From positions 171,501-235,500 of the forward strand of contig CAJNOJ010000032.1 of NCBI GenBank assembly GCA_905250025.1: a DNA stretch of 64,000 bases, written 5' to 3'. Shown one piece after another: positions 57,242-61,406 of this stretch. This DNA is from Adineta ricciae (lineage: Eukaryota; Rotifera; Eurotatoria; Adinetida; Adinetidae). A program made the position numbers and the translations under genes. The first letter of the stretch is position 1. Each line of letters opens with the position of its first letter. The notes under the pieces were generated by a model, which saw nothing but the letters and a program-made list of their open reading frames with translations, was not told the origin of the DNA and searched no databases.

Positions 57242-58968
57242 ATGAATAAAATGGCCACGAACGTGCTTGAAGATCATAGTAAGCAACATACAACTGACTA
57301 TCTACAAAAGAAGCATATTAATGAGTTATTCGAAGTAAGATTTTCGCCGGAGAAAGTCGATTCGATTTGTCTTTCTCTTTCTTCAGGCCATGATGACTGC
57401 TTTGATGGTTTATAAACCGGATGATCATATATCATTCTTACGGAAATGTTTAGATAAGGTTAGTTGAAGAGTTTTGCTTGTGTGAAGATGTTCAGAGAGA
57501 GAAAGGTTTGTAGGTTGAAAACAAGCGCATGACGATCTCTTGGGATTTTTTTGTGAATCAATCAGCGTTTAATTATGAAATACAGAAATCATTACCTCCG
57601 ATTCATTCTTCATCCAGTAATATGCCGCTATCAGACCTGCAAATGTCCAGCAAAGTTTCAGTCCTACCTCCAATTGAATCAACGAAAACAAATTCTGTGC
57701 AGGTACCGATTATTTTCATCCTTAGTAAGTCTTCTTTCGTTCATTTAATCCAAACACAAACATATGCTTGAAGGTCTGTCGAATTCACTCACATTATGCT
57801 CGAAATTACTCGAGCGTTATCATGGACTCGAATATCTCCCCATTAATGACATGGCAAACGTCGACAAAGGAGAATCCACAGGTAAAAGCCTTAGTTACAT
57901 TCGAAATGTAACTTACAGAGTTGTGTAGATCTCGCACAACATGATTATCGGTTTGATTGCATTTTGCGCACCATTAATCGGCGTCGTGCTCAGGCAAATG
58001 GTTTTCTCATTCTCGGTGAATTAGATGAACAAAACTATCTGGAGCAATGGCAGGACAAGGTAACTGACAGTAGCTCAACAAAATATCTCGAAATCTTTGA
58101 ACTTTCCAGCTGGGTCGAATCGATTCAATCATGATTTTATCAGAGAATCCATCTCGACAAATGTCTGATGAGCAATTCAACATCACTTATGTAAGTTAGT
58201 TTTCACTTTCATCTGACAAGTGATGAATTCCATCTGTTTCCAGATCGATTCAAGGAGCAATATGAGCAATATATTTTCATCTGCAATTCATTCGCTTGAT
58301 CGACTATTTCCTCAGGACGCTTTCTTCAGTCGACGGTCTGAAACGATGTTGTTCGACTCAACTCAAACGAATCTGCCGATTTTGTTCTGCATTGATAATC
58401 ACCGTATGCAAAAACAAGAAAATGACAATGAAAATTCGGGATTAGACGAAGAATTCGATTTGGTCAACGATAATACAGAAGAAAATAATAATTCGTTTAT
58501 TTATACTTTATGTCAATGTTTAAGCGAACAATTGAATTTCAAGCATATACACTACGGAGATTTCCAGAAAACATTATTGACTTTTGAAGAATTAAAAGCA
58601 GAAGTCGTCGAATCAATCAGTACGTGTTCAGGATTTATAATCGATCATTTTCCTGATTCGTGCGCGGACTTGGACAGATTTCAATTGGAGGTAGGGCAAA
58701 GAGATGAGTGAATTGGAAGTTTAGTTTGTATGTAGATTGGACCATGCTCAGTGTTGGTTTATATTGGTGACCATCGTGCAATAACGGAAGAAGACGGAGT
58801 GAATACAGTAATAAAGCGATTTCAGGAGAAACGAAAAGCTCTTTATGTAAGGAAATGAGAATTATATGAGAAAGTTTCTTATTCAAATCATTGTTTTAGG
58901 TCGATTGTCGTAAAGAAGTCGATGAAATTTATGAAGATCTTAAAAGTGAAATTTTGAAACATATTTGA
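57242..58968 (+). CDS. AK5-like pseudo-adenylate kinase
   Basis: Nine exons (57242-57334, 57387-57458, 57514-57724, 57774-57881, 57929-58059, 58110-58190, 58244-58690, 58736-58846, 58900-58968) give 440 residues. The first 55 residues are a DPY30/RIIa-like dimerisation region (YLQKKHINELFEAMMTALMVYKPDDHISFL) matching AK5 and the gene just downstream. Two nucleotide-kinase folds follow in AK5 order: PIIFIL/LCSKLLERYHGLEYLPI, ANGFLILGELDEQNY, and later IYTLCQCLSEQLNFKHIHYGD, CSGFIIDHFPDSCADL. In both, the P-loop GGPGSGKGT is gone: residues 126-133 read SLSNSLTL, and the second domain has an acidic insert there. Key arginines are also missing. The frame is open and all phases agree, so it is not a decayed gene. 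Adenylate kinase activity is very unlikely; a scaffold or regulatory role is inference. An alternative ATG lies nine bases in. Confidence 0.85.
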
Positions 58969-59109
58969 ATCTATTCTACATGTGCAATTCTATGTTGTGC
59001 CTTTCTCTTCTCTACTTTGTTGTAAATCGTTGTGAATTTCAAATGTCTTTTCCAAAATATCTTTACTCTGCTTATTGTCTGATATTTTCAGATTATATCA
59101 TTGTTAGCC

Positions 59110-61406
59110 ATGGCCAAGCAAGAAACAACAGCAACACCAACTCTTGCAAAGGATTATTTATCCAAACGAAAAATTCCCGAGTTATTCGAAGTGAGGACGA
59201 TTGAAAGTTGAAATCTGAGTGTATTATCTCTGTTCTCTAGGCTTTAATGACTGGGCTAATGGTGAATAAACCCGATGATCATATTGGATTTCTTATGGAT
59301 TCTCTTTCGCGGGTCAGTTCTTTTCCATGTGCATAGAACATCAGATTTTCGCTTGATTTTTTAGTGTAAAGGCAGCAAACAGTCATTGAAATGGGACACA
59401 TTTGTTAGCCATAATAGTGGTAGTCATAATGCATTACCTCCTATTGATTCACCGACAGCAAAATCCGGTGCGACTCAGCCAACATTAAACAATCAATCAA
59501 AACTCGCTCCGATTTCTGGTAATAAACCAGACGAAACGCCGAAAAACGACATTCGACCGCCTTCACCCAAACTCGCTCAACAGCAAACTTCGAAATCTGA
59601 GGCTATGCCTGCGAAGACTGAAGCGCAGTCAGTAAAGACTGCCACTCAACCACCAGCATCGAAGTCGGAGTCTTCGTCTCACACGAAGCCAGATGATACT
59701 AAAAACAAAAGTCTACTTCAAGGAAAACCAATTATTTTCGTTGGTGGTGGTCCAGGTAAAGATATGAATGTGATATTTGAAAGGAGAGGTTCACTATATC
59801 TCTCTAATAGGCAGTGGTAAACGAACTCAATGTCGAAAAATGGTTGAGAAATATGGTTTTTGTCATTTATCAGCGGGTGATCTCATTCGCAGTGCTGCGC
59901 AAGACACATCGACGGAAAGAGGCCGCTATTTCAATGATACAATGCTAAAAGGCAAACTCATTGCAACAGTAATTTCCTTTATCACATTATCAAAATTACA
60001 CGTAAATGACGTTCATTTTGTTCTTAGGAAGATATTCTTGGCTTAATCAAAGATGCGGTTTATGAAAAAGCTAAAAATGCGTTAGGATTTTTAATTGATG
60101 GATTTCCTCGTCGCATTGACCAGGGTAAATGAATTCCATCGAAATTAAAAATGCCATCATTCCTTCACTTTCAGGCATTGAATTTGAACAGAATGTTGCT
60201 GAGTGTAATGTTCTTATTTATCTGGATGTTCCCGAAGATGTGATGGCTACACGCTTAATCAAACGTGGTGAAAGTAGTGGTCGAAGTGATGACACCGAAC
60301 AAATTATCAAGAAACGTATACAAACTTTTCATGATGAAACCAAACCCATTCTTGGTCATTATGGTAAACAAGGAAAGTTAATTACCATTGATGCGAATCG
60401 ACCAATTGACGAAGTATCAGACGATTTAATCGACGCATTCACTGGATTGATGAGCCAACAGCAAGTAGGTAAATAATTCTTGTGATTCGATGTTTGTTTG
60501 GATAGAATTGATTTGATATGTGTGTGCGTTTCAGTTCTTCCGGATCGATCCTCTATGGAAAAATTGAAGAACAAGAAAATTATTTTTGTGGTCGGTGGAC
60601 CAGGTTAGTTTATTTGAATGATCGTTATTATCAGGTTAACTTTTTTGTTGATAATAGGCTCAGGAAAAGGTACACAATGCGAACGCATTGTTCAGAAATA
60701 TGGTTTTACGCATTTAAGCACTGGGTATGAACAGAACATGTGCTAAAGTAGATGATGGAAATTGTTTCGTTTCAGTGATCTTCTTCGTGATGCTGTTCAA
60801 TCGAAAAGTGAACGTGGCGAGCAACTGAATGCTTTAATGAAAGAAGGAAAGCTGGTTCCTATGGTATATCAATCAATAATCTCAGCTGTTTCATTGAACA
60901 TTTCGTTTTGGTTTTTGTAGGAAGTGGTGTTAGATTTGCTCAAAGAAAACATGCTTGAAAAGGCAGATAAATCTAAAGGATTTCTCATTGATGGTTATCC
61001 ACGCGAAGTACCCCAAGCAAAAAAATTCGAAGAACTGGTTTGTTATTCTTTTCATTCTTGATATTCAACCCTTTCGGTCTCGCTTGAGAAGATTGCTCCA
61101 TGTGATCTTGTTTTGTATGTCCAAGCAAGTGACGAAACAATGACGAAACGGTTGTTACACCGTGGTCAAACATCGGGTCGAGTCGACGACAATGAAGAAA
61201 CAATAAAGAAGCGTTTGAAGACATTTCATAATCAAACAATTCCGGTTTTGGATCTTTACGAACGCAGAAATAAATTAGTTGAAGTAAGTCATCGATAACA
61301 TTTTGCTTTGCATTCGATGGAATTCGATTTCGTTTAGGTTAATTCGGAATTACTGCCTGATGAAGTTTTCAAAGAAGTCCAACACGCACTGGATAATTTA
61401 CATTGA
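59110..61406 (+). CDS. AK5: Double-domain adenylate kinase, AK5 type
   Basis: Twelve exons (59110-59190, 59241-59312, 59365-59755, 59811-59968, 60028-60124, 60175-60468, 60535-60603, 60658-60724, 60776-60863, 60921-61037, 61092-61283, 61338-61406) give 564 residues. It interconverts ATP+AMP and 2 ADP. Order: DPY30/RIIa-like start ([21 protein letters not shown], as in AK5); LKWDTFVS; a Pro/Ser/Lys-rich linker; kinase domain 1 with [14 protein letters not shown] (Lys185), [35 protein letters not shown]; kinase domain 2 with [14 protein letters not shown] (Lys391), [37 protein letters not shown]. Both catalytic sites look intact except Gly-to-Arg after Lys185 in domain 1. Splice points of the first two exons equal those of the upstream paralogue, marking a tandem duplication. 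Confidence 0.95.

Follow-up and report, generated by a model that had tools for sequence, protein, structure and literature searches.

The window, a stretch of 64,000 nucleotides of the Adineta ricciae genome (contig CAJNOJ010000032.1, here C32, positions 171,501 to 235,500), carries two genes in tandem on its forward strand: an AK5-type adenylate kinase and, upstream of it, a second gene that we call hollow. Their features are as follows.

57242..58968, forward strand: hollow gene, a predicted AK5 paralogue; 9 exons, 440 aa, ATG at 57242, stop at 58968
57242-57334, 57387-57458, 57514-57724, 57774-57881 and 57929-58059, forward strand: hollow gene, exons 1-5
58110-58190, 58244-58690, 58736-58846 and 58900-58968, forward strand: hollow gene, exons 6-9
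57242..57555, forward strand: hollow gene, docking/dimerization (D/D) module; exons 1 and 2 and the start of exon 3, residues 1 to ~69
57700..57881, forward strand: hollow gene, beta1 of domain 1 and site of the lost P-loop; phase-1 intron as in AK5
57929..58190, forward strand: hollow gene, domain 1 core without lid; GFPR of AK5 replaced by GELD
58373..58492, forward strand: hollow gene, beta1 of domain 2, then an acidic insert at the P-loop place; residues 276-315
58493..58968, forward strand: hollow gene, domain 2 core without AMP arm and lid; C-terminal EVDEIYEDLK conserved
59110..61406, forward strand: AK5-type adenylate kinase; 12 exons, 564 aa, D/D module and two ADK domains

Gene Models at the Locus

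The exons were reconstructed one by one, and GT...AG borders were found at 8 of 8 introns in the hollow gene and at 11 of 11 in AK5, whose exon 6 ends at 60468. The open frame of 440 codons over nine exons that a sequence-only reading had proposed was thereby recovered at 57242-58968. The window AK5 matched the Pfam family ADK (PF00406) in two stretches with an E value of 5.4e-96, and its second domain was nearest to AK1-type PDB entries, 3adk scoring higher (249.5 bits) than the human-named AK5 domain 2, 2bwj (193.6 bits). This downstream gene had been described as intact. GGPGSGK is indeed present in both of its domains; however, the P-loop of domain 1 carries GKR (59822-59824), while the copies on contigs C191 and C149 have GKG, and the GKR-bearing domain may be impaired.

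Several other features were observed in the predicted genes and next to them. Exon 7 of the hollow gene (58244-58690) is single in the window and split in two in C191 and C149; going by the gene models, an intron was either gained or lost after the block copies separated. On the 3' side of AK5, at 61954-62569, lies a long palindrome with three nested arm pairs, 86-97% complementary, which is possibly a foldback mobile element. The long AK5 intron of locus L029 (on C191) holds, at 2214-2223 of the minus strand, a candidate alternative first exon, ATGACACAAG followed by GT, and the same holds for L030 (on C149). Joined by splicing to the second, AK1-like domain, this candidate exon would let the AK5 gene give a short AK1-like product. 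Neither AATAAA nor ATTAAA occurs in the five inter-gene gaps of the cluster that were examined, and one such motif follows AK5 in the window and one in C191. The idea of an operon based on these gaps was set aside as uninformative, because shuffled gaps also lacked the motifs in 38% of trials. A search for a spliced leader, with query letters that may be wrong, gave no match.

Further Copies of the Pair

A protein search of the same genome (130 Mb, 1033 contigs, only the best candidates scored) located the hollow gene on C32, C191 and C149. Otherwise it returned the D/D module of AK5 itself and two weak matches, one on C16 at E 0.07 and one on C726 at E 0.33. The C16 match, to the D/D module at 294778-294948, falls within a 259-aa open frame that may encode a further D/D protein. 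The order, hollow gene and then AK5, is the same in all three copies. The gene models of the window and C191 agree except that one exon is divided in two; for C149, the model was transferred from C191 by alignment and has an open frame and canonical splice sites.

C191 and C149 share 92.8% identity across 9.9 kb and, on this measure, are an allele pair. Translated matches between C32 (202-237 kb) and C191 (204-132 kb) are collinear and inverted, and since this block holds both pairs, the pair and its hollow state are older than the block duplication. Synonymous divergence was 0.14-0.18 between alleles in the three genes of the cluster and 1.6-2.4 between blocks (kappa 1); for the hollow gene between blocks it was 1.13 with kappa 3. 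For Adineta ricciae, mean KS values of 0.14 between homologs and 1.27 between ohnologs are given in PMC5916493, and the block pair, at this level of comparison, resembles bdelloid degenerate tetraploidy. Counts of the telomere repeat, tried as a bdelloid marker, were uninformative (12 and 26 matches, against 14 and 30 for the reversed control), as the reversed repeat is a rotation of the original one. Identity between the block copies was 44% for the hollow gene versus 63-64% for AK5. No allele of the window hollow copy was found in the assembly, so we can only infer its present constraint.

Descent From AK5 and Loss of the Nucleotide-Binding Elements

The two genes had been said to share their start, the first exon borders and a two-kinase-domain layout, and the comparison bore this out. 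Introns 1-3 lie at identical places and in identical phase (0, 0, 1) in both genes, the third splitting the P-loop glycine codon in the AK5-type layout. Matched by eye, 7 of the 8 introns of the window hollow gene sit at AK5 intron places: direct matches are introns 1, 2, 3, 7 and 8, of which the last two correspond to introns of AK5 domain 2, and introns 5 and 6, in domain 1, occupy places that AK5 has in domain 2, in phase 0, leaving intron 4 with no exact AK5 counterpart. When profiles of three sequences each were aligned with hhalign, hollow gene and AK5 matched over 399 columns with a probability of 99.6 (E 1.7e-24), a score that is partly due to the D/D module. In the PDB, the window hollow protein as a single sequence found adenylate kinases at E 0.14 only; the three-sequence hollow profile found 3umf with 9.6e-5 for the whole sequence and 0.08 for the best stretch alone. 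Both hollow kinase domains retain recognisable core strands. By profile and intron position, the hollow gene is of ADK descent, and on the same comparisons it is an AK5 paralogue with a D/D module and two ADK-derived domains, placed in tandem with AK5.

Aligned to AK5, all three hollow copies lack the P-loop in both domains, as had been claimed for the upstream copy of the window. The domain 1 site reads ILSLSNSLTLC in the window, where SLSNSLTL occupies residues 126-133, and LLSSSNATKLC in C191, versus VGGGPGSGKxTQC in AK5; in domain 2 an acidic insert after beta1 replaces the P-loop. The GxPR and RxDD arginines, the AMP arm and the lid are features of an enzymatically active adenylate kinase. 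In the hollow gene, GxPR is replaced by GELD/GHLD and HFPD/GFPT (window/C191), with Asp at the arginine position of both window domains, and the lid stretch holding SGRxDD, and with it the RxDD arginine, is deleted in the alignment of the window and C191 copies. The loss of the key arginines was thus confirmed; at one further lid-side arginine position the local alignment is uncertain. Counted by eye in the family-profile alignment, the shortening of domain 1 is ~14 residues in the AMP arm and ~37 in the lid, and that of domain 2 ~24 and ~27 residues, respectively. Searched against Pfam, the window hollow protein gave two families at E <= 1, both below the cut-off and neither of them ADK, and ADK was likewise not listed among the families at E <= 1 for the C191 copy. 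In its P-loop, its arginines, arm and lid and its Pfam score, the predicted product falls outside the enzymatically active ADK (PF00406).

A wrong gene model could produce the same picture if the true product had a P-loop, as the exons were predicted from sequence alone. This explanation is scarcely credible. No match to any of four P-loop patterns was found when the window hollow gene was read in its three forward frames with 300/100 bp of flanking sequence, or in the spliced product of any of the three hollow copies; moreover, the window and C191 models agree bar the one exon split, and the C149 frame is open with canonical sites. Read-through into intron 4 yields GESTGKS, one residue short of Walker A and off the P-loop place. 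An alternative frame or exon choice that restores a P-loop, which the sequence-only reading had named as its refutation, was therefore ruled out over the gene and its flanks.

Selection on the Hollow Gene

Over 452 codons, the C191 and C149 alleles of the hollow gene are separated by 24 nonsynonymous and 43 synonymous changes, and neutrality is rejected (dN/dS 0.148, P 3.4e-13; dN/dS 0.197 and P 3.5e-10 when kappa is 3). The corresponding counts for AK5 are 21 and 47 over 570 codons (dN/dS 0.118). A neutral dN/dS, also named beforehand as a refutation, was not what these alleles gave. The exons differ at 67 of 1359 positions (4.9%) with no gap columns, and the introns at 53 of 465 (11.4%) with 7 gap columns. 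Within the hollow gene, allelic dN/dS was 0.036 for beta1 and the acidic insert (1 nonsynonymous, 6 synonymous), 0.047 for the D/D module (1 and 5), 0.093 for the linker, 0.156 for the domain 2 core and 0.26 each for domain 1 and the inter-domain segment; with kappa 3 the inter-domain segment was not significant (P 0.11) and domain 1 had P 0.023. The kinase domains of AK5 are tighter than the hollow ones, with 0.096 in domain 1 and 0.021 in domain 2.

Between the block copies, where synonymous sites are near saturation, dN/dS of the hollow gene was 0.205 with kappa 1 and 0.483 with kappa 3. A codon model of the three copies rejected dN/dS = 1 on the path from the window to C191/C149 (2dlnL 166); the dS of the window branch is unrealistic (saturated) and the path spans both sides of the duplication, and only the rejection of neutrality was used. 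Of 1000 neutral simulations at 0.11 substitutions per site, 0.2% kept an open frame, and at 0.5 none of 1000 did. On these estimates the hollow gene as a whole is under purifying selection, most clearly in the D/D module, the insert and the domain 2 core. As the lesions are common to the two further copies and purifying selection is found there, the hollow form is not a product of chance.

The loss of the catalytic motifs and an evolution faster than that of AK5 are also what a decaying pseudogene would present. However, purifying selection, open frames and splice sites are found in all three copies, and decay was rejected by the allelic dN/dS, the codon model and the neutral frame simulation; we consider it highly improbable. 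The earlier term, a maintained pseudoenzyme, agrees with the constrained and ungapped exons, with introns that diverge more than exons, and with the hollow state of both blocks.

The insert raises another alternative, namely that the protein has acquired a new ligand-binding or regulatory function, its acidic insert and remodelled core binding, for example, a metal ion or a partner protein. The insert belongs to the most constrained allelic segments, and the motifs LDxEF, EE and NNSF are common to the copies. Nevertheless, this constraint reflects one nonsynonymous and six synonymous changes, and between the block copies the segment is 45% identical with one indel. Such a function seems rather unlikely.

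The D/D Module and a Third Gene of the Cluster

Eight D/D modules (three hollow, three AK5, two D/D-only) were aligned, and 17 of 77 columns were invariant. Compared with the PDB, their profile matched PKA RI-alpha best (E 0.0068), followed by FAP385 (0.032), EFCAB10 (0.052) and AK8 (0.077), each of these matches being marginal. The start of both genes had been called DPY30/RIIa-like: a marginal resemblance to PKA-regulatory D/D modules was seen, and DPY30 was absent among the 15 PDB chains listed for the profile. In the loop between helices I and II the first proline is kept, and in all eight modules, those of AK5 among them, His takes the place of the second. The R1D2 clade is defined by two prolines at the ends of this loop (PMC8339350), and by this definition the predicted modules of the cluster lie outside it. 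The same source places AK5, AK8 and EFCAB10 in the PKA-R D/D superfamily and describes D/D proteins as heterodimerising and organising cilia; SPA17 and ROPN1L, for instance, heterodimerise and then anchor more tightly. The charges computed for the modules showed nothing decisive.

In the C191/C149 copy of the block, the cluster has a third tandem member.

C191:151477-151808 (= L029:6878-7209), minus strand: D/D-only gene, three exons, 76 aa, upstream of the hollow gene

Its counterpart lies at the matching place of C149 (L030), and the two products form a 76/77-aa pair that differs by 1 nonsynonymous and 7 synonymous changes (P 0.0004 with kappa 3). Used alone, the D/D-only protein had no Pfam match at E <= 1 and no PDB match at E <= 10. 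On the window contig, a search for this gene at E <= 1 gave only the D/D module of AK5.

A constrained D/D-only gene in the same cluster speaks for a structural, homodimeric D/D protein that is unconnected with AK5 and docks on an amphipathic helix, for example in the cilium, its hollow folds serving as spacers or binding platforms. FAP385 points the same way: it has 70 aa, is strikingly similar to the N terminus of Tetrahymena AK8 and was modelled in the neck of the Chlamydomonas radial spoke (PMC12399478). On the other hand, the next gene is AK5 in all three copies, and the D/D-only protein alone is without a match in either database. This structural reading is possible but doubtful.

Discussion

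Probably, the upstream gene arose long ago by tandem duplication of AK5 and has since become a maintained, D/D-anchored pseudo-adenylate-kinase with a docking or structural role. The upstream copy has lost its P-loops and its GxPR and RxDD arginines, and its AMP arm and lid are reduced or absent. The resulting protein would neither catalyse nor bind nucleotides in the usual way, although it may bind them by another route. Through its D/D module it would form a dimer, either a homodimer or one with another D/D protein, for which AK5 is the nearest candidate, and in the role of a docking or structural subunit it would position AK5 or give a complex its shape. A heterodimer with AK5 may be its main function, although we put this at clearly less than even. 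The faster evolution of the hollow gene compared with AK5, and its looser kinase domains, count against the explanation as a whole. The structural D/D and the ligand-binding alternatives are narrower versions that overlap with it, and the likelihoods given to them are not exclusive.

More tentatively, the cluster might divide a single enzyme into a graded set, consisting of D/D alone, D/D with a hollow double kinase and D/D with an active double kinase. Mixed D/D dimers could form among its members, and the hollow twin could determine the position or the number of active AK5 units, for example along cilia; we regard this as an unlikely but coherent extension.

Pseudoenzymes are common. Here, a two-domain adenylate kinase appears to have been stripped in both domains and kept under selection since before the block duplication. 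In the open literature searched, with most subscription journals outside the scope, we found no description of a doubly stripped two-domain adenylate kinase kept beside AK5. The pair offers a natural test of what a kinase fold does once its substrate site is gone, and of possible pairing between hollow and active paralogues through D/D modules.

Among known proteins, AK5 is the closest to the hollow gene, which shares with it an N-terminal D/D module, two ADK-derived domains and the place and phase of introns 1-3. The hollow gene differs from AK5 in the absence of both P-loops, in an AMP arm and lid that are truncated or missing, and in the acidic insert of domain 2. AK4 is reportedly an enzymatically inactive adenylate kinase that interacts with another protein; unlike the hollow gene, it is mitochondrial and not derived from AK5. 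The SPA17-ROPN1L and RSP7-RSP11 heterodimers, as presented in PMC8339350, are related D/D proteins that pair and may serve as a model for mixed dimers. They are of the R2D2 type and without adenylate kinase domains. FAP385, as described in PMC12399478, is a small protein similar to the N-terminal part of an adenylate kinase and parallels the 76/77-aa D/D-only gene of C191/C149, a parallel that is suggestive only. FAP385 resembles AK8, not AK5, whereas the window gene retains two hollow kinase domains.
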